NCBI GenBank assembly: GCA_003695725.1
Contig: RFHX01000033.1
Location: 1 to 7,160, forward strand
Direction of reading: 5' to 3'
DNA: 7,160 nt
Source of the DNA: J061 sp003695725 [NCBI: Candidatus Schekmanbacteria bacterium]
GTDB taxonomy: Bacteria > Schekmanbacteria > GWA2-38-11
Made by a program: the position numbers and the translations under genes. Below the pieces are notes generated by a model that was given only the letters and a program-made list of their open reading frames with translations, was not told where the DNA came from and ran no database searches. Positions 11 to 7,160 of the stretch are shown here, piece after piece. Numbering within the stretch: position 1 is the first letter of the stretch; each line of letters starts with the position of its first letter.

Positions 11-331
11 ATGAACAAAAAAAGTAAAGCTCTCTACAATGCGAAAGCAAAAATAGTGAAGGCGTTAGCACATCCCACACGTTTGTATATAACTGAGAAA
101 CTGGCAGAAAGAGAACATTGCGTTTGTGAATTTGTTGATTCTATTAATGTTGATTTTTCGACCATTTCAAAACATTTATCTATTTTAAAAGAAGCGGGTA
201 TTGTTGATGACGAGAAGCGCGGAAAACAGGTATTTTATAGGCTTAAGGTGCCATGCATCATAAATTTCGTAAAATGTATTGAAGATGTTATTAAATCCAA
301 TGCTGATTATCATATGGCGTTGATAAAATAG
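11..331 (+). CDS. arsR: ArsR/SmtB-family metalloid-responsive repressor (first copy)
   Basis: A 106-residue winged-helix repressor of the ArsR/SmtB family. It is expected to bind operator DNA as a dimer and to release it when As(III) or Sb(III) binds. The N-terminal part contains the family phrase KALAHPTRLYI (residues 17-27). The recognition-helix region is at about 48-65 (DFSTISKHLSILKEAGIV) and the wing is at 66-78. Cys37 and Cys39 in HCVCEF match the CxC metal site of E. coli-type ArsR (ELCVCDL). Cys82 and Cys89 near the C terminus are possible third ligands. ATG at 11 is taken as the start because it precedes a typical N terminus, but only ten bases lie upstream, no Shine-Dalgarno site is visible, and the frame is open to the window edge. 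The start and the gene's own promoter therefore cannot be settled. It lies 56 bases before the permease gene and probably controls that promoter through the dyad at 345-368. Confidence 0.9.
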   Translation: MNKKSKALYNAKAKIVKALAHPTRLYITEKLAEREHCVCEFVDSINVDFSTISKHLSILKEAGIVDDEKRGKQVFYRLKVPCIINFVKCIEDVIKSNADYHMALIK

Positions 332-349
332 TTTTTTTTGCTCTTTATT
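320..349 (+). promoter_or_regulatory. Possible sigma-70 promoter of the permease operon
   Basis: TTGATA (320-325) matches the -35 consensus at five of six positions. It is followed, at an 18-base spacing, by TTTATT (344-349), which matches the -10 consensus at four of six. The predicted start near 356 would lie inside the dyad at 345-368, a sensible place for repression. The -35 element overlaps the end of arsR1, and the -10 is weak. The genes may instead be read from a promoter upstream of arsR1, outside the window. Confidence 0.3.
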
Positions 350-368
350 TGGTAATTTTACCAAATAA
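345..368 (+). promoter_or_regulatory. Perfect inverted repeat, likely ArsR operator
   Basis: Two perfectly complementary 11-base arms, TTATTTGGTAA (345-355) and TTACCAAATAA (358-368), are separated by TT. Read as half-sites this is TTATTTGG, eight bases, then CCAAATAA. It lies 20 bases before the permease ATG and overlaps the putative -10. It has too little GC for an intrinsic terminator and no T-run follows it. The same 8-8-8 layout with a related half-site occurs before arsR2 at 3546-3569, which supports operator function. Direct binding by ArsR1 or ArsR2 is inferred. Confidence 0.65.
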
Positions 369-387
369 CAATATATAAGGGGTTGTT

Positions 388-1689
388 ATGAATTGGAAAG
401 ACGAATGGAAAAAGTTGGTATTGATCATGACGATTTTTATTTTTTGCTTCTATATGCCTATTGGCAACAAAGATTTTGATAATGCAGTTTTAGAGGCTTT
501 GCATCTCGTCAAATGGTATGCCAGGGAGCATGTACTCCTTTGCCTGGTGCCTGCTTTTTTTATCGCAGGCGCTATATCTGTTTTTATAAGTGAATCTTCC
601 GTAATTAAATATTTCGGGGCCAATGCAAATAAAATTCTTGCCTATAGCGTTGCATCTGTTTCCGGAACGATTCTTGCAGTCTGCTCCTGTACTGTTTTGC
701 CCTTGTTTGCGGGGATATATAAAATGGGAGCGGGAATCGGACCTGCAGTATCTTTCCTCTATTCCGGTCCTGCCATAAATGTATTGGCGATAATTCTTAC
801 TGCGCGTGTATTGGGGTTTAAGTTAGGTGTTGCCCGCGCCATAGGTGCCATTTTATTCAGTGTGCTTATAGGCATGATAATGCATTTAATTTTTCATAAA
901 GAAGAGAAAATAAAGACGCCAAAAGAAACATCCTTGTCAGGTGAGGAAGTCAGACGTCCTCTTTGGAAAAATATCCTTTATTTTGCTTCTATGGTTGGAA
1001 TCTTGGTTTTTGCCAATTGGGGGAAACCATTGGAGTCCGGAGGGCTTCAGGCATTTGTGTACAGTGAAAAATGGACATTGACATCATTATTTTCGACTGC
1101 GCTAGGCATTATGCTGGTTTTTTGGTTTGAACTGAAATGGTGGAAGGTTTTAGTTACTGCGCTATCTGTTGCTGTTTTAGTGTTTATTTTCCCGGAAATT
1201 CCATTAATCCCCTTTACGGCAGGGGTAATAGGGCTTTCATTTTTCACCAGTACGGATACGGGCGAGACTTCCGAATGGTTTGCATCATCATGGGCTTTTG
1301 CCAAACAGATTATGCCTTTGCTTTTGTTTGGTGTACTCATTGCAGGAGTATTGCTTGGGCGTGTTGGGCACGAAGGATTGATTCCTTCTAAATGGGTTTC
1401 TACTGCTGTGGGTGGCAATTCGCTGAAGGCAAACTTTTTTGCGTCCTTTGCAGGAGCATTTATGTATTTTGCCACGCTAACTGAGGTGCCAATTCTTCAA
1501 GGACTTATTAAAAACGGAATGGGACAGGGGCCTGCATTGGCTTTACTGCTTGCAGGTCCGGCATTAAGTCTGCCGAATATGCTTCTCATTCGTAAAGTGT
1601 TAGGCACAAAAAAAACAATTGTTTACGTATTTCTTGTAATTGTTATGTCCACGATAAGTGGAATCCTTTTTGGACAAATAAGCGGTTAA
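388..1689 (+). CDS. ArsP/DUF318-type permease with two internal repeats
   Basis: A 433-residue polytopic inner-membrane protein of the predicted permease family that includes ArsP (DUF318). Known ArsP proteins export trivalent organoarsenicals; the substrate here is not established. The fold looks duplicated. Residues 101-143 (CTVLPLFAGIYKMGAG..., SGPAIN, RVLG) align by eye with 364-406 (LTEVPILQGLIKNGMGQ..., AGPALSLPN, KVLG). The first repeat carries Cys99 and Cys101 (VCSCTVLP), typical of this family and a possible thiol site for metalloid. The second repeat has Thr-Leu-Thr-Glu in place of the cysteines. A charged cytoplasmic linker lies around 170-190 (HKEEKIKTPKE), with many hydrophobic segments before and after. 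ATG at 388 is preceded by AAGGGG (377-382) at a five-base spacing. It follows arsR1 and precedes the FmdE-like gene by 40 bases, so it is probably the first gene of a metalloid-induced operon. I give no symbol because arsP would assert an untested substrate. Confidence 0.85.
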   Translation: MNWKDEWKKLVLIMTIFIFCFYMPIGNKDFDNAVLEALHLVKWYAREHVLLCLVPAFFIAGAISVFISESSVIKYFGANANKILAYSVASVSGTILAVCSCTVLPLFAGIYKMGAGIGPAVSFLYSGPAINVLAIILTARVLGFKLGVARAIGAILFSVLIGMIMHLIFHKEEKIKTPKETSLSGEEVRRPLWKNILYFASMVGILVFANWGKPLESGGLQAFVYSEKWTLTSLFSTALGIMLVFWFELKWWKVLVTALSVAVLVFIFPEIPLIPFTAGVIGLSFFTSTDTGETSEWFASSWAFAKQIMPLLLFGVLIAGVLLGRVGHEGLIPSKWVSTAVGGNSLKANFFASFAGAFMYFATLTEVPILQGLIKNGMGQGPALALLLAGPALSLPNMLLIRKVLGTKKTIVYVFLVIVMSTISGILFGQISG

Positions 1690-1716
1690 AGCTAAAAATG
1701 ATTAACCTGTAACATT

Positions 1717-1723
1717 GGGAGGA
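1717..1723 (+). promoter_or_regulatory. Ribosome binding site deciding the FmdE-like start
   Basis: GGGAGGA lies six bases before ATG at 1730. An in-frame TTG at 1715 overlaps this site and would place the Shine-Dalgarno inside the gene, so the ATG is preferred. Confidence 0.8.
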
Positions 1724-1729
1724 AGTAAA

Positions 1730-2353
1730 ATGGTAAAAGCAAAAGATTTTTATGAAGTGGGACTTAAATTGCATGGTCACAAATGTCCTGCTATGCCGAT
1801 GGGGCTTCGTGCGGGCCAGGCAGCGATGAACAAGCTTGGCGTAGAACGTGCGAAGGACGGTCAGTTAATGGCTTTTGTAGAAATTGGCGAGAATCATTGT
1901 GCCACATGTTTTGCTGATGGTGTGCAAGTGATAACGGGATGCACATTTGGCAAGGGCAATATCAGCAAACTCCACTACGGGAAATGGGGGCTAATATTGA
2001 TTGACAAAGAAACAGGCCGCTCTGTAAGAGTGTCCCCCAAAGCAGAGATAATGCAGGAAAATAAAAAGACGGAATTTTTTACCGAATACCGTCAAAAAGG
2101 CATTCCCGCATCCAAGGTGCCTGATGAAATTGTGGCACCGCTCGTGGAAAAAGTGATGAGTGCGCCTGAAGAAGTATTATTTAATATTGGCGATGTGGTT
2201 TCATGGCAATGGGAAGAGCCCGTCCATTCCTTCGAAGGGTTTGTTTGTGACATTTGCGGAGAAATGACGGTGGAGCACTACGGGCGCATTTTGGGTGACA
2301 AGAAAGTTTGTATCCCTTGCAGGGAAAAAACCGCAGAAACGAGCAGAGAATAA
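1730..2353 (+). CDS. FmdE-family protein with C-terminal zinc finger
   Basis: A 207-residue soluble protein related to subunit E of formylmethanofuran dehydrogenase. FmdE relatives are widespread in non-methanogenic anaerobes, often near metal or molybdate genes, and their biochemical role is poorly known. The FmdE domain covers about residues 5-110. It has the HGHKCP motif (His15, His17, Cys19) and GENHCATCFADG with Cys57 and Cys60, followed by ITGCTFGKGN with Cys71. These residues are likely metal or thiol ligands. A separate C-terminal module at about 170-200 holds CDIC (Cys173, Cys176) and CIPC (Cys194, Cys197), a four-cysteine zinc-ribbon or treble-clef finger as seen in long FmdE proteins. 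No signal peptide or membrane segment is visible. No other methanofuran pathway gene is in the window, so a role in methanogenesis is unlikely. Its place between two membrane transporters under an ArsR suggests a metalloid, metal-binding or redox role, but this is inference. Confidence 0.82.
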   Translation: MVKAKDFYEVGLKLHGHKCPAMPMGLRAGQAAMNKLGVERAKDGQLMAFVEIGENHCATCFADGVQVITGCTFGKGNISKLHYGKWGLILIDKETGRSVRVSPKAEIMQENKKTEFFTEYRQKGIPASKVPDEIVAPLVEKVMSAPEEVLFNIGDVVSWQWEEPVHSFEGFVCDICGEMTVEHYGRILGDKKVCIPCREKTAETSRE

Positions 2354-2391
2354 AAAATGAGAGCATTGCTGAATATATCCGAGAGTAAATT

Positions 2392-3192
2392 ATGATAGCA
2401 CATCCCCAACTTATTTTGTCTGCCCTTTTTTTCCTTGTGTCAATTATATTTTCGATGATGGGACAAGGGGGAGGCGTAATCTACACACCTCTTCAAGTTT
2501 GGTTCAATATAGATTTTCATACAGCAGCCACAACAAGTCTTTTCCTCATATTGGCTGCATCCGTATCTTCCTCTCTTGTCTTTCGAAAAGCGGGAAAAAT
2601 CGATTGGCCTCTTGCCTTGGTATTGGAGACTTCGACAGGTGCAGGAGGATTTGCAGGAGGGTTTTGGTCAGAAAAATTTTCAAGCGTTTTCCTTTCCCTG
2701 CTCTTTGCAGGGGTAATCTTTGTCTCTGCGTTTTTTATGATCAACTCATTTAAGGGAAAGAAAGAAAATAAAACGGACTCTAAAGGATTGTTCATCTGGA
2801 AGCGGGTACTCAACAATGAAGCATATTGTGTTAACCTTTTGCTGGCTTTGCCCCTGTCCTTTGCAGCTGGAATAATAAGCGGATTGCTGGGAGTGGGGGG
2901 AGGCATACTGAAAGTTCCTTTGATGGTTATTCTCTTGGGAATTCCTATGGATATAGCAGTCGGGTCCAGTGCCTTTATGATAGGGATAACGGCTTTTGGC
3001 GGTTTTGCAGGGCATATAGCAAAAGGACATTGGGACTGGATAACTTCACTTGTCCTTGCTGTTGCGGTAATTGCCGGAAGCCAAATAGGAAGCCGCATTT
3101 CGGTAAATATTGATAAAAACAAATTGAAAAAGGCTTTTGGCTGGTTTCTTTTTGTTATTGCGATTTCAATGGTAATTAAGGCGTTATGGTAG
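2392..3192 (+). CDS. TauE/SafE-family membrane exporter
   Basis: A 266-residue integral membrane protein of the TauE/SafE (DUF81) family. Characterised members move sulfite, sulfoacetate or other small organosulfur anions across the inner membrane. The two family repeats are clear: GQGGGVIYTPLQ at residues 24-35 and GLLGVGGGILKVPLM at 164-178. About eight hydrophobic segments are split by a charged, lysine-rich cytoplasmic loop at 121-140. The length is normal for the family and both ends look complete. ATG at 2392 is preceded by a weak GAGAG (2381-2385), 38 bases after the FmdE-like gene, so it is probably co-transcribed. In an ArsR-controlled operon it could handle sulfite, thiosulfate or a thiolated oxyanion, but the sequence does not define the substrate. 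Confidence 0.88.
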   Translation: MIAHPQLILSALFFLVSIIFSMMGQGGGVIYTPLQVWFNIDFHTAATTSLFLILAASVSSSLVFRKAGKIDWPLALVLETSTGAGGFAGGFWSEKFSSVFLSLLFAGVIFVSAFFMINSFKGKKENKTDSKGLFIWKRVLNNEAYCVNLLLALPLSFAAGIISGLLGVGGGILKVPLMVILLGIPMDIAVGSSAFMIGITAFGGFAGHIAKGHWDWITSLVLAVAVIAGSQIGSRISVNIDKNKLKKAFGWFLFVIAISMVIKALW

Positions 3193-3244
3193 AAGTGGCA
3201 GAAAGAGAGGGGGTTTTCGATTTATGAGATTACAATTTTAAATT

Positions 3245-3249
3245 GGAGG
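3245..3249 (+). promoter_or_regulatory. Ribosome binding site deciding the thioredoxin-like start
   Basis: GGAGG sits eight bases before ATG at 3258. An in-frame TTG at 3243 overlaps this site and would add five residues (MEDVK) not expected of the family, so it is not used. Confidence 0.8.
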
Positions 3250-3257
3250 ATGTAAAA

Positions 3258-3491
3258 ATGAGGAAAATAAAGATTCTTGGGACAGGATGCGCTAGATGCA
3301 GACAAATGGAGGCGAATGCAAAAGCGGCGGCAAAAGAAGTAGGCATTGATTATGAATTGGAAAAAGTGACAGACCTACACGATATTATATCAGCTGGAGT
3401 TATGACAACTCCGGCGCTCATTGTGGACGGAGAAGTAAAAGTTGCAGGCAAGGTGCCTTCGATTGAAGAAATGAAAAAAATTTTATGTTAA
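3258..3491 (+). CDS. Small thioredoxin-like redox-active disulfide protein
   Basis: A 77-residue single-domain thioredoxin-fold protein of the type called redox-active disulfide protein 2, also named small archaeal-type thioredoxin or glutaredoxin. It begins with a beta strand (KIKILGTG) and the active site CARC (Cys11, Cys14). It continues with the cis-proline phrase MTTPALIVDGEV (Pro52) and ends in an amphipathic helix. The last residue, Cys77, is an extra unpaired cysteine. Proteins of this family are often encoded beside ArsP/DUF318 permeases, as here, which suggests a thiol-disulfide or metalloid-transfer partner for the permease; this is inferred. It lies 65 bases after the TauE gene and is the last gene of module A. 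It might also reduce the ArsC disulfide of module B, as thioredoxin does for this ArsC class. Confidence 0.87.
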   Translation: MRKIKILGTGCARCRQMEANAKAAAKEVGIDYELEKVTDLHDIISAGVMTTPALIVDGEVKVAGKVPSIEEMKKILC

Positions 3492-3523: not shown

Positions 3524-3552
3524 TTGACTTTTTTTCTTTTATCTAATATTTA
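3524..3552 (+). promoter_or_regulatory. Likely promoter of the arsR2-arsC-arsD-arsA-acr3 operon
   Basis: TTGACT (3524-3529) matches the -35 consensus at five of six positions. At 17-base spacing it is followed by TATTTA (3547-3552), which keeps the first three -10 bases. The predicted start near 3559 falls inside the dyad at 3546-3569 and leaves room for a leader with the weak AAGAGA site before ATG 3589. A perfect TATAAT at 3567-3572 is not used, because its start point would fall within the ribosome binding site and it has no good -35. Confidence 0.5.
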
Positions 3553-3569
3553 GTTATTTAGCTAAATAT
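3546..3569 (+). promoter_or_regulatory. Inverted repeat, likely ArsR operator of module B
   Basis: The arms ATATTTAG (3546-3553) and CTAAATAT (3562-3569) flank eight bases (TTATTTAG). The inner copy of TATTTAG also forms a perfect 14-base palindrome with the right arm (3555-3568). Arm length and eight-base spacing equal those of the dyad at 345-368, and the half-sites differ mainly by A for G at one position. It overlaps the -10 and start region of the module B promoter, as expected for autorepression by ArsR2. Confidence 0.65.
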
Positions 3570-3588
3570 AATATTAAGAGAAATATAA

Positions 3589-3969
3589 ATGGATAAAATA
3601 GTGCAGGTCATAAAAAGCCTTTCAGACAAAAACCGCCTGCGGATAATTGCGGCATTGATGGAAAATAAAGAACTTTGTGCCTGTCAGATAACAGAATTAT
3701 TGAATATCAGAGGAGCAAGCGTTTCACGCCATCTATCCCAGCTTGTCAATGCAGGGATTTTGAAAAGCCGTAAGGAAGGGCGTTGGATTTATTTCAGCAT
3801 TAGAAATAGGAAGATGTCAGATGCTTTGCTTTCCTGCATTAAAGCTGAGTTATTGAAATCTGAGGAAATTGAGAGAGACAGGAAGGTGCTTAAAAAAATT
3901 CTTGCAACTGATGTAGAAGATATCTGCAGGAAACAGCGCGGTGAGAAGTGCTGTCCTAAAAAAAATTGA
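3589..3969 (+). CDS. arsR: ArsR-family arsenite-responsive repressor (second copy)
   Basis: A 126-residue ArsR/SmtB-family winged-helix repressor, expected to autoregulate the operon that follows. The conserved start [13 protein letters not shown] (residues 11-23) leads to ELCACQ with Cys30 and Cys32, the CxC arsenite site of classical ArsR. The recognition helix is at about 43-60 ([18 protein letters not shown]) and the wing at 61-72 ([11 protein letters not shown]). It is about 20 residues longer than ArsR1 and ends in a basic, cysteine-bearing tail with Cys113, Cys121 and Cys122 ([16 protein letters not shown]). Cys83 lies in the dimer-helix region. The two repressors are clearly different sequences and not a recent duplication. 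ATG at 3589 follows a weak AAGAGA (3576-3581). The dyad at 3546-3569 directly upstream is the likely operator. The arsC ATG begins eight bases after its stop. Confidence 0.93.
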
Positions 3970-3977
3970 AACAGACA

Positions 3978-4412
3978 ATGAAACAAAAAATAAAAATACT
4001 TTTTCTTTGCACAGGAAATTCCTGCCGCAGCCAGATGGCTGAAGGGTGGACACGCCATCTCAAAGCAGATGAAATAGAAGCGTATTCTGCCGGAGTGGAA
4101 ACACACGGACTAAATCCCAATGCAGTAAAAGTGATGGCAGAGGCGGGTGTTGATATCTCAAAGCATCGATCAAAGCATATTGATGAATTTAAAAATACAG
4201 AATTTGATTATGTCGTTACTTTATGCGGAAATGCGCAGGAAACATGTCCCGTTTTTCCCGGAAGAACGAAAGTTATTCATATTGGATTTGATGACCCACC
4301 AAAAATGGCAGAAAAAAAGGAAACACAAGAGGAAAAACTCAACTGCTACCGCAAAGTTAGAGATGAGATAAAAGAGTTTGTTGAAACATTACCGGAATCA
4401 TTGAATAAATGA
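3978..4412 (+). CDS. arsC: Arsenate reductase, thioredoxin-coupled low-MW phosphatase type
   Basis: A 144-residue cytoplasmic enzyme that reduces arsenate to arsenite for export. It belongs to the S. aureus/B. subtilis type, related to low-molecular-weight tyrosine phosphatases. The P-loop is CTGNSCRS (Cys11, Arg17). The resolving pair sits in [14 protein letters not shown] as Cys83 and Cys90, with the usual six-residue gap. FDDPP (Asp105) supplies the general acid. All catalytic residues are present and the length is normal. The cycle ends in a Cys83-Cys90 disulfide that thioredoxin reduces in known relatives. I use ATG at 3978 because family members begin just before the [11 protein letters not shown] strand. 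An in-frame TTG at 3966 would overlap the arsR2 stop. Neither start has a clear Shine-Dalgarno, so translation may depend on coupling to arsR2. Confidence 0.95.
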
Positions 4413-4425
4413 AAGGAGAAGAGCA

Positions 4426-4785
4426 ATGAAGACACTAAAAATTTATGATCCAGCACTATGTTGTTCTACTGGAGTATGTGGACCAAATCCTGATGAGAAA
4501 CTTGTTAAGCTTGCAGCTTTTCTTAAAGGATTGAATGAAAAAGAGTGTAAGGTGGAGCGATATAATCTAGCTCAACAACCAGAAGCATATAAAGAGAATA
4601 AAGTTGTCGCGAATTTGATGAAAAAGGAAGGAGTAAAGGCTCTTCCTATTTTTTTTATTAATGATGAAGTTGTTTTTTCAGGTGAATATCCCGATATTTC
4701 AGAGCTTGAAAAACTTTTGAATATAGCTTCTGTTGATGAGTCAGATGCTTCTTGCTGTGATTCTGAAGATTGCGGGTGCAGCTGA
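4426..4785 (+). CDS. arsD: ArsD arsenite metallochaperone
   Basis: A 119-residue thioredoxin-fold chaperone that carries As(III) from cytosolic thiols to ArsA and raises its ATPase activity. The essential triad is present as Cys12, Cys13 and Cys18 in DPALCCSTGVCG. The conserved mid-region VKALPIFFINDEVVFSGEYP is at 70-89. The C-terminal tail carries Cys110-Cys111 and Cys116 plus Cys118 (SCCDSEDCGCS), close to the vicinal cysteine pairs of E. coli ArsD. Such tails are variable in the family and not essential in E. coli. ATG at 4426 has a good AAGGAG (4413-4418) at seven bases. Its stop overlaps the arsA ATG by one base, so the two are almost certainly translated in step, fitting their direct interaction. 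Confidence 0.95.
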   Translation: MKTLKIYDPALCCSTGVCGPNPDEKLVKLAAFLKGLNEKECKVERYNLAQQPEAYKENKVVANLMKKEGVKALPIFFINDEVVFSGEYPDISELEKLLNIASVDESDASCCDSEDCGCS

Positions 4786-6554
4786 TGAACAATCTATTGG
4801 AAAAAACTCCAAGATTCATATTTTTTACTGGCAAAGGTGGTGTTGGCAAGACTTCAATATCTTGCGCTGTGGCTGTAGGGCTTGCAGATTCTGGGAAGAA
4901 AGTACTTCTGATTAGCACTGATCCAGCATCGAACTTGAGTGAAGTGCTTAATACAGAAGTTACTACAAAACCACAGCAAATAAAAGGATTACGAAACCTT
5001 TTTGCAATGAATATCAATCCCATTAAAGCAGCAGAGCAGTATCGTGAAAAAATGGTTTCACCATATCGAGGAGTACTGCCTGATGAAGCAATTGAGCAGA
5101 TGGAAGAACAGCTTTCAGGTGCCTGCACAGTAGAGATTGCAGGATTCAATGAATTTTCAAAATTTATTGGAGATGAGAATATTATAGGTGATTATGAGCA
5201 TATAGTTTTAGACACTGCACCAACAGGACATACTCTTCGTCTTTTGAATTTGCCTTCTGCATGGAACGATTTTATTGCTACAAATCAAACAGGAAGCTCC
5301 TGTTTAGGTCCAGTATCAGGCTTAAAAGAGCAAAAAGCACTCTATGAGAAAGTGCTAAGTGAACTGAAAAACCCTGAAAAAACTCTATTAGTATTGGTTG
5401 CTACAGCAGAAAAAATAGCTTTACTTGAAGCCGAGAAAGCAAGCCGTGAATTGAAAGAATTGGGAATAAAAAATCAACATCTTGTTATTAATGCAATCTT
5501 TGAAAATGGTTCAGATGATAAAATTGCAAAAGCCTTTGCGATAAAATCACAAAAAGCGCTTGAAGAAATACCACAAGAAATTGAAAATCTTCCTTCTACA
5601 CGGATTTCTTACTGTCCTAAAGGCATCATAGGGATAGAATCATTAAGAGAAATTTGTAAAGAGTCTGGTGATGCAATTGAAAAGGCAGATTACAAAAAAT
5701 TGAATTCATTTGTAAAAGAAATTTTGAAAGAAACTTGGGATTGGCATTCATTCATCGATGGACTTGAATCAAAAGGATATGGCGTCATAATGACAATGGG
5801 AAAAGGAGGTGTCGGAAAAACTACAATTGCCTCAGCTATAGCTGTTTCTCTTGCTGAAAGAGGTAATCCTGTGCTTCTTTCAACAACCGATCCTGCAGCG
5901 CATATTCAATATACAGTAGATTCTGATTGTCCAAATTTAGAAATTTCCAGAATCGACCCTAAGGCAGAGACCAATCGATATGTAAGTACTATTCTTGAAA
6001 GGAATAGGGAGAAGCTGTCTAAAAATGATATGGCACTTCTTGAAGAGGAGCTTCGTTCACCATGTATTGAAGAAGTGGCTGTTTTTGAGGCATTCGCAAG
6101 GACAGTGGCAAAGGGGAAAAACAAGTTTATAGTTCTCGATACTGCGCCAACGGGGCATACCTTGCTTCTTCTCGATTCAACACAATCCTTTCATCGTGAA
6201 GTTGAAAAAACATCAGATGGTTTGCCTTCAGAAGTGAAAGAACTTCTGCCTCTTATTAGGGATCCGAGTTTTACCTGCGTTCTCATTGTCACTTTGGCTG
6301 AAGCAACACCTGTGCATGAGGCGGCATATCTTCAGAATGACCTTCTGCGGGCTGGCATTAAACCTTTTGGTTGGATTATCAACAGGAGTTTTGCAATTTC
6401 TGATTCAAAGGATCCCTTGCTCTTTCAAAAAGGGTTGACTGAAATTCCTTATATAAATGAGGTTATAAATAAGCACTCATCAAAGACATTGATTCTACCA
6501 TGGATAACAGAAGATACATATGGAATTGATAACTTGAAGAGGATAACAGTTTAA
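4785..6554 (+). CDS. arsA: ArsA arsenite-stimulated ATPase (two-domain)
   Basis: A 589-residue cytoplasmic ATPase that energises arsenite/antimonite efflux through its membrane partner, close to the 583 residues of E. coli ArsA. The A1 half has P-loop TGKGGVGKT (15-23) and signature DTAPTGHT (143-150). The A2 half has GKGGVGKTT (339-347) and DTAPTGHT (452-459). The three metal-site cysteines are all present: Cys114 ([10 protein letters not shown]), Cys173 (GSSCLGP) and Cys427 (LRSPCIEE). A linker of about 30 residues joins the halves near 305-330. Both ATP sites therefore look intact. The chosen ATG at 4785 overlaps the arsD stop (TGATG). A TTG at 4770 would add five residues and lies inside arsD. 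By hand count of a few 60-base blocks, GC is about 30-38% in the first two-thirds and about 43-45% near the end. Pairing with ACR3 rather than ArsB is known but less familiar than in E. coli. Confidence 0.97.
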
Positions 6555-6567: not shown

Positions 6568-7160
6568 ATGGGAAACGAAGTTTGCAATAACACTGAAGAT
6601 AGAAGAATGACAAGCATCTTTGAACGCTATCTGACTATCTGGGTTGGACTTTGCATAATTGCAGGTATAGTTTTGGGAAAAATTGCTCCCAATGTGGCAA
6701 AAACCTTGGATGGTATGTCAATCTTCGTCAACGGCGCTCCTGTCGTGTCTATTCCAATAGCAATATGTCTCTTTTTTATGATGTATCCTATTATGGTGAA
6801 GATAGACTTTGCTGAAGTGGTGAAGGCAGGTAAAAGTGGGAAACCTGTACTTTTGACCCTCTTTGTCAACTGGTGCATAAAACCCTTTACAATGTATGCA
6901 ATTGCCCTTTTTTTCCTTGGAATAGTATTCAGAGGATTTATCGGCGCCGAGGCGATGGATTATGTAAAGATGCCTTTTGGGCTTGACCTTCCACTCGGCG
7001 CTACCCACGGTGCCGGCACAGTGGTGATGCATAATGGTATGAAAATGCTTGAAGTGCCGCTGTGGCGAAGCTATCTTGCAGGATGTATTCTTCTTGGTAT
7101 TGCTCCCTGCACTGCAATGGTACTTGTATGGGGTTATCTTGCCCGTGGAAGTGACGGACT
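6568..7160 (+). CDS. acr3: ACR3-type arsenite efflux permease (3' end outside window)
   Basis: The first 197 residues of an arsenite exporter of the ACR3 (BART superfamily) type, cut by the window edge. Family landmarks are [18 protein letters not shown] (first membrane segment, about 20-37), [20 protein letters not shown] (61-80), [15 protein letters not shown] (93-107), and [19 protein letters not shown] (177-195). The last includes Cys181, the functionally important cysteine of the fourth membrane segment. That cysteine is usually near residue 130-140. Here an extra stretch of about 40 residues, roughly 124-166 (from [15 protein letters not shown] to KMLEVPLWR), sits between segments three and four. 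ATG at 6568 follows a strong ribosome site 13 bases after arsA, so the gene is part of the arsR2 operon and supplies the membrane channel for ArsA. The C-terminal half, including the conserved glutamate of segment nine, cannot be checked. Confidence 0.93.

Follow-up and report, generated by a model that had tools for sequence, protein, structure and literature searches.

This analysis concerns the contig RFHX01000033.1 of a Candidatus Schekmanbacteria genome (C33; 7160 bases, analysed as one entire contig and called the window hereafter), and in it a five-gene unit in which an FmdE-family protein is paired with a TauE/SafE permease behind an ArsR-type gene. The source genome comprises 2.77 Mb in 374 contigs and is rated 97.84% complete. 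Open reading frames and family scans place ten genes in the window, all on the + strand and falling into two units, unit 1 at 11–3491 and unit 2 from 3589 to the end. Unit 1 is made up of five open frames of the same orientation, in the order arsR1-arsP-fmdE-tauE-arsE-like thioredoxin, with a palindrome between the first two:

11–331, + strand: arsR1, ArsR/SmtB repressor (HTH_5 56 bits, 3.9e-15; HTH_metalloreg 87.5 bits, cut-off 55)
345–368: perfect 11-2-11 palindrome between arsR1 and arsP, probably the operator of ArsR1
388–1689, + strand: arsP, ArsP_1 permease of 433 aa (PF03773 246 bits, 6.4e-73)
1730–2353, + strand: fmdE (FmdE 115 bits; zf-dskA_traR 25.4, cut-off 24.9)
2392–3192, + strand: tauE, TauE/SafE (TSUP) permease of 266 aa (PF01925 168 bits, 5.1e-49)
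3258–3491, + strand: arsE-like mini-thioredoxin with CxxC (TIGR00412 106.5 bits, cut-off 62; Thioredoxin_3 96 bits)

The best starts of fmdE and of the thioredoxin gene are ATG codons (1730 and 3258, respectively), and earlier TTG starts are also present in the list of open frames. Since the gaps within unit 1 measure only 38–65 bp, a single transcript is likely; since the window is a complete contig, the region 5' of arsR1 and the remainder of acr3, the last gene of unit 2, lie outside view. A preliminary description of this DNA had named the five gene families, pointed to an As(III)-type CxC at Cys37/Cys39 of ArsR1 and to two cysteine/histidine-rich sites in FmdE, and placed the unit directly before a full ars operon. 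All of this is borne out, namely by the family matches of all five open frames, by the ArsR1 sequence, by an HHCC metal site and a C4 zinc finger in FmdE, and by unit 2, which reads arsR2-arsC-arsD-arsA-acr3 with acr3 cut by the contig end.

FmdE of the window has a thioredoxin-like core with the predicted metal ligands H15, H17, C19 and C60, and a C4 zinc finger formed by C173, C176, C194 and C197. It is 35% identical to the Thermoplasma structure 2gvi of the Protein Data Bank (PDB), on which its model (pLDDT 92.7) superposes with a TM of 0.84, so that core fold, H-H-C-C ligands and C4 zinc finger together identify it as a two-domain FmdE of PF02663. In the 2010 paper describing 2gvi (PMC2954224) the zinc ligands are His16, His18, Cys20 and Cys61, the fold is a circularly permuted thioredoxin-like core with a treble-clef zinc finger, and an unidentified ligand lies 1.8 Å from the Cys61 sulfur. 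The same paper left the function of FmdE outside methanogens open (PMC2954224). A link of unit 1 to methanogenesis is ruled out, as there are no fmd/fwd catalytic genes among the window's ten proteins.

Relatives of this FmdE were collected from three sources: (i) a search of 290 genomes, 30 of which gave a match, this genome included (weaker second FmdE matches were left aside), (ii) a genome scan with an FmdE alignment, which gave at least 573 relatives and from which the best 80 by likeness to the FmdE query were used, and (iii) plasmid records of Citrobacter, Kosakonia, Sulfuricella and Halorubrum. The resulting census comprises the window and 97 further loci (98 in all), in which genes were called by a codon-based method and labelled with profiles; left out were L119 (on the same contig as L081, and without further duplicates in the set), L115 (overlapping L031), and those of L001–L015 for which the window or the longer copies L119–L132 stood in. 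Neighbour profiles were built from the same loci as those counted, and the labels ArsF, ArsG, porin, TetR, Crp and rhodanese go back to one representative each, compared with Pfam or NCBIfam. Many loci are from Bacteroidota and akin to one another, and two genomes give two contigs each, and the p-values below are accordingly not for independent cases; moreover, the selection favoured loci whose FmdE resembles that of an ars island, so that the association with ars genes may be exaggerated.

By record title the relatives from the genome scan belong to Planctomycetota, Nitrospirae, Spirochaetes, Myxococcales, Acidobacteria, Bacteroidota, Proteobacteria, Gemmatimonadetes and others, and further include Desulfotomaculum, a cyanobacterium and Zixiibacteriota. 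The search for conserved co-occurrence that had been suggested earlier is hereby carried out: the families recur beside FmdE across several phyla, which rules out a neighbourhood private to this genome. At 15 of the 98 loci FmdE is found together with each of the other four families of unit 1 (ArsR, ArsP, TauE and thioredoxin), the carriers being, among others, a Spirochaete, a Zixibacterium, Pleomorphomonas, a Gemmatimonadete, a Myxococcale, a Citrobacter plasmid and two Prolixibacter. Counted per stretch, TauE is present in 83, ArsR in 41, ArsP in 34 (in 7 cases as short or split ArsP-like frames only) and the ArsE-like thioredoxin in 26; ArsG-type genes are found in 19, ArsF-type in 12, arsC and acr3 in 22 each, Porin_O_P-type genes in 34, TetR-type in 26, RND efflux permeases in 18, rhodanese in 13 and Crp-type genes in 11.

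At 80 of the 98 loci the best FmdE copy has a TauE gene no more than three genes away, and at 58 the two are directly adjacent on the same strand (median gap 32 bp, from 60 pairs). The 18 loci without a close TauE include some short contigs or contig ends, and seven of them (L049, L058, L068, L079, L084, L086 and L092) have FmdE immediately beside ArsP or an ArsP-like gene; at L042 TauE adjoins the other FmdE copy, and at L092 it stands four genes off. The equivalents of His15, His17, Cys19 and Cys60 are kept in 97 of the 98 best FmdE copies, the sole exception being L132 (from genome G178), where Gly takes the place of Cys60 and TauE is absent from the 19 kb stretch. It is not the case that every FmdE stands beside TauE. 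When the best matches of the 29 other genomes were split at E 1e-30, TauE was found in 11 of the 14 stretches of related FmdE versus none of the 15 of distant FmdE (Fisher p 1e-5; both groups contain a few short stretches), and the pairing hence marks an FmdE subfamily. That the genes are chance neighbours, or parts of a loose genomic island with no joint function, is in our view highly improbable: gene order and partners do differ widely among the loci, but TauE keeps its closeness to FmdE at the 80 loci just named, and all five families come together at 15, in several phyla.

The TauE proteins themselves are far more varied. Of the 43 other TauE in alignment A3, three share 56–61% identity with that of the window and the remaining 40 share 20–32%, and the TauE proteins of the loci split into several divergent clades, while 36 other FmdE (alignment A4) are 59–73% identical to the window FmdE; this suggests that FmdE retains a TauE partner while TauE itself changes. 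No solved relative of the window TauE (model pLDDT 91.9) was found by sequence (E <= 0.1) or by fold (E <= 0.001), the fold search giving a weak likeness to BacA/UppP only (E 0.05).

Several individual loci deserve description. L034, on the mobilizable plasmid of Citrobacter amalonaticus Y19, carries a permease, thioredoxin, rhodanese, DUF2703, FmdE, CDF, TauE, a sigma-70 family factor and trxB, and its island also holds the full ars operon arsD-arsA-arsC-ACR3. At L066, L071, L072, L087, L107 and L114, mostly from Bacteroidota, one FmdE copy precedes and a second follows TauE and a Porin_O_P-type gene, the order being TetR-FmdE-TauE-porin-FmdE. Two Planctomycetota loci have, after a shared arsR-fmdE-tauE, a gene of ~590 aa (L045, 10903–12672; L055, 7044–8810), and at L041 a Sulf_transp/TsuA-like gene (4613–5863) is located between arsP and the ArsE-like gene. 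L058, L084, L092 and L096 contain an ArsP-like permease as two adjacent frames of ~160 and ~177 aa that adjoin FmdE and are devoid of the C(S/T)C motif. For the Kosakonia plasmid stretch, comparison with E. coli genomes gave no place covering 80%, the ten matches listed being insertion-sequence matches.

Arsenic genes are found in many of the same stretches. One or more of arsC, acr3, arsA and arsD occur in 28 of the 98 (21 of the 68 stretches of at least 10 kb), and the count rises to 48 when arsP, ArsG-type and ArsF-type genes are included. For 50 of the 80 loci from the genome scan (at least 10.2 kb long, from 49 genomes) we derived an expectation from stretch length, genome size and copy number: acr3 is in the stretch at 14 loci versus 0.20 expected, i.e. 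~69-fold, with loci that are partly related and chosen by FmdE likeness. An ACR3 match is present anywhere in 42 of these 49 genomes, 40 of them over the cut-off. Arsenic islands with FmdE also contain arsM (L085, 345 bits; L081, 324; L074, 339; cut-off 263), ArsF (91 bits, cut-off 60) and ArsG (319 bits, cut-off 200).

ArsR1 combines an HTH_5 domain with a CxC in the DNA-binding helix region, as As(III)-type repressors do; the motif is CVC (Cys37-Val-Cys39), and Cys82 and Cys89 are present in addition. We take Cys37/Cys39 to correspond in position to the two cysteines that bind As(III) in E. coli ArsR, the third cysteine of which presumably corresponds to V42 in ArsR1. Binding of As(III) and release of the operator are predicted from this motif. 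A C-terminal pair like 82/89 recurs in the ArsRs heading arsP/fmdE operons at L041, L126, L045, L055, L063 and L090, and also in the second ArsR of L038. Where FmdE is one of the five co-directional genes that follow an ArsR, this ArsR has CxC in 11 of 22 cases, versus 2 of 26 for the other ArsRs of the same loci (p 0.002, with a grouping chosen post hoc). The 18-base core of the palindrome has no second exact copy in the genome and one further site at two mismatches, while the reversed control pattern has five sites at up to two mismatches.

ArsP of unit 1 is the single ArsP_1 match in the whole genome. With HVLLCLVPAFFIAG and LAV-CSC it carries both motifs that define cluster 1 in Yang et al. 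2015 (C(S/T)C preceded by LAV, and Hv(L/I)xClvPAfFIAG; PMC4435449), and it is thus a cluster 1 ArsP. Assignment to its nearest NCBIfam models, SO_0444 Cu/Zn efflux (112 bits, cut-off 300) and SaoE (107 bits, cut-off 325), was considered and rejected, neither cut-off being reached. By its family, ArsP would export a trivalent, probably organic, arsenical. The mini-thioredoxin exceeds the cut-off of TIGR00412, which is the 'MTH895/ArsE family' of NCBIfam, and possesses the CxxC; it is a member of this subfamily, and its ArsE function is predicted from the subfamily model.

Unit 2, the neighbouring operon, has the following features:

3538–3577: imperfect inverted repeat upstream of arsR2, unlike the palindrome at 345–368 and the presumable start of the second unit
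3589–3969, + strand: arsR2, with CAC at Cys30/Cys32, heading an ordinary ars operon
3978–4412, + strand: arsC, thioredoxin-type arsenate reductase (TIGR02691 168.3 bits, just under the cut-off of 174.3)
4426–4785, + strand: arsD (NF033727 119 bits, cut-off 90)
4785–6554, + strand: arsA (TIGR04291 750 bits, cut-off 650)
6568–7160, + strand: acr3, partial, cut by the contig end (TIGR00832 151.5 bits)

As the two repeats are unlike each other, and the two ArsRs likewise, units 1 and 2 are probably under separate repressors. A scan of the window for sites gave no terminator-like site between the thioredoxin gene and arsR2, so that read-through from unit 1 is possible; over the whole window it gave 11 promoter-like sites (9.8 expected) and 7 terminator-like ones (4.3 expected). 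The Acr3 fragment (6568–7158) has 180 residues over 129 model positions and thus an insert of ~50 residues, and some Acr3 genes of the other genomes scanned are similarly long (~1115 nt for 327 model positions).

Based on the evidence collected so far, we consider unit 1 a good candidate for an undescribed arsenic detoxification route, the core of which, FmdE–TauE, recurs across phyla and often in arsenic islands. More specifically, we assign a probability of roughly one half to the reading that unit 1 is a second, separately regulated arsenical-detoxification operon in which FmdE handles a soft oxyanion and TauE exports it. A trivalent arsenical would bind to Cys37/Cys39, upon which ArsR1 would let go of the palindrome at 345–368; ArsP would export a trivalent arsenical, and the ArsE-like thioredoxin would provide reducing power, as their families suggest. 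FmdE, a soluble protein with a two-His/two-Cys site, would bind or chemically modify, in the cytosol, a soft oxyanion containing arsenic or sulfur, and pass it to TauE for export of the anion, a handover that we propose because the FmdE site is nearly invariant and tightly paired with TauE, sometimes with ArsP. In the source genome no ArsM exceeds the family cut-off (six weak methyltransferase matches, the best at 41.8 bits versus 263), so that methylarsenite as a substrate would need an outside source and would stem from neighbouring organisms; methylarsenite made under anoxia has been proposed as a weapon against competitors (PMC11653729).

Measured against these results, the second detoxification route envisaged in the preliminary description stands insofar as unit 1 has an As(III)-type ArsR and a palindrome of its own and is conserved beside ars genes in several phyla; for the chemical there is more than one candidate. 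Methylated arsenic, one of the substrates it considered, suits ArsP, and arsM is part of at least three related islands (L074, L081 and L085); production of methylarsenite by the cell itself was given less weight, as no ArsM of this genome exceeds the cut-off. Its statement that unit 1 has no classical ars enzyme is to be qualified: with a thioredoxin of the MTH895/ArsE family, unit 1 does hold one known kind of ars gene.

A number of observations weigh against the proposed arsenical function. No arsC, acr3, arsA or arsD is present in the stretch at 70 of the 98 loci (30 of the 98 stretches being shorter than 10 kb). In the less biased sample of 29 genomes, ACR3 occurs in 7 of the 14 with related FmdE versus 11 of the 15 with distant FmdE; within 9 kb an over-cut-off ACR3 is found in only two of the 14 (G107 and G171), with a sub-cut-off match ~9.5 kb off in G023, and the distant set has no over-cut-off ACR3 nearby and one sub-cut-off match ~9 kb off (G263). 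TetR (26), porin (34) and Crp (11) genes replace or accompany ArsR (41), and the TauE family is named after sulfur anions. Finally, FmdE and TauE distances agree weakly (r 0.30, reached by none of 2000 permutations) and less so than those of FmdE and arsC (r 0.54, likewise none of 2000), so that co-evolution of FmdE and TauE is not demonstrated by distance correlation; FmdE–ArsR gives r 0.31 (none of 2000), while FmdE–ACR3 (r 0.23; 119 of 2000) and FmdE–ArsP (r 0.08; 321 of 2000) are not outstanding.

CDF cation exporters, too, tell against it: among 87 unlabelled neighbours within two genes they are the commonest (10, followed by four chromate transporters and four alginate-export porins). 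The pairs without an ars enzyme in view, together with the CDF, porin, TetR and Crp partners, indicate that the FmdE–TauE pair is not bound to arsenic alone. One may then ask if the module serves divalent metals, with FmdE as a chaperone or sensor of zinc (or copper, or cadmium), with ArsP, TauE and CDF exporting metal or anionic complexes, and with the ars genes as mere island context. Most PF02663 genes adjoin genes of metal-ion transporters (PMC2954224), an FmdE-TauE-CDF-ZIP cluster is found on the Halorubrum plasmid, RND efflux permease genes occur in 18 of the 98 loci, and the nearest NCBIfam models of ArsP, both sub-cut-off, are SO_0444 Cu/Zn efflux and SaoE. The window, however, contains no CDF, ZIP or RND gene, and acr3 at 14 of 50 loci versus 0.20 expected is hard to square with a generic metal-island context. 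Furthermore, ArsR1 has no cysteine in its first 36 residues, the region in which the Cd sensor CadC has two ligands. All in all, we regard this explanation as unlikely, albeit one of two serious rivals.

The other is sulfite relief. TauE would export sulfite or thiosulfate accumulating from the use of sulfane sulfur against arsenic in rhodanese-type reactions, and FmdE would be a sulfur-handling protein of that route. Membership of TauE in the TauE/SafE family, the presence of sulfur bacteria (Sulfuricella, Chromatiaceae) among the carriers, and the thioredoxin-like fold of 2gvi with an unknown ligand at a cysteine (PMC2954224) fit this idea, as do rhodanese in 13 of the 98 loci and the TsuA-like gene of L041. 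In addition, the second-best NCBIfam match of ArsR1 is BigR, a sulfite-sensing repressor according to the NCBIfam description; its score of 62.7 bits, however, is far beneath the cut-off of 155, the window holds no rhodanese or sulfur enzyme, and 85 of the 98 loci have no rhodanese in view. We deem sulfite relief likewise unlikely. Sulfur-anion transport by TauE is what the family name suggests, and it is on this name, on the rhodanese counts and on the TsuA-like gene that both the sulfite/thiosulfate and the thiolated-arsenic substrates raised earlier are based. It is tempting to speculate that FmdE–TauE is an undescribed pair of a chaperone or enzyme and an exporter for thio-oxyanions, with thioarsenates as the substrate on the arsenic side: the metal/cysteine site of FmdE would bind or form a thiolated arsenical, and TauE would export it, a substrate in keeping with a family named after sulfur anions such as sulfite. 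Tentative as this is, and improbable in our estimate, the pair would, if it is true, provide the route of resistance to thioarsenate whose existence a 2018 review describes as expected but awaiting verification (PMC6205960).

The significance of these findings is that one FmdE subfamily now has TauE as its regular partner, a type of regulator that recurs often, and a setting open to experiment in the form of arsenic islands, one of them on a Citrobacter plasmid. Should fmdE-tauE alter how well any arsenical is tolerated, the list of ars genes would gain a new resistance determinant, and the missing thioarsenate route would be open to direct testing.

It remains to compare unit 1 with known systems. 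Both ArsP and thioredoxins are known members of ars operons, and we found no description of the FmdE–TauE pair in arsenic islands: a literature search gave no text naming both FmdE and TauE, within a coverage mostly outside subscription papers, and one text listed in which FmdE co-occurs with arsenic; among the matches listed for ars literature there was no FmdE or formylmethanofuran dehydrogenase. Yang et al. 2015 surveyed 717 transporters from ars operons; their table has two CDF, two chromate and 8 hypothetical ones and no TauE, and the words TauE and sulfite are absent from that text (PMC4435449). Campylobacter ArsP exports methylarsenite and trivalent roxarsone, not arsenite (PMC6205960). 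TauE of Cupriavidus necator is a sulfite exporter (PMC5840216) of the same TauE/SafE Pfam family as the window TauE, but none of the ten window proteins comes from a sulfonate gene. With the FmdE family structure 2gvi, the window FmdE has the fold, the metal ligands and the C-terminal zinc finger in common; it differs in being paired with TauE and ArsP, with no formylmethanofuran dehydrogenase genes in the window. Published ars operons with ArsP and a small redox-disulfide thioredoxin (TIGR00412) share both with unit 1, the ArsP of which is by length of the ~400 aa type, but the window lacks a CcdA/ArsG-type gene; the text describing these operons names neither FmdE nor formylmethanofuran dehydrogenase nor a sulfite exporter. 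An ArsE-family thioredoxin is also common to the arsEFG operon, reportedly described by Chen, Zhang and Rosen in 2019 (as cited in PMC9144182), and FmdE islands of some relatives hold ArsF-/ArsG-type genes beside ArsP; unit 1 itself is not an arsEFG operon, arsF and arsG both being absent from the window proteins. A functional analogy may be ArsD, a thioredoxin-fold cytosolic metallochaperone that serves an exporter. FmdE might be likened to it in role, with the difference that FmdE would bring to this role a circularly permuted fold (PMC2954224) and a His/Cys metal site.

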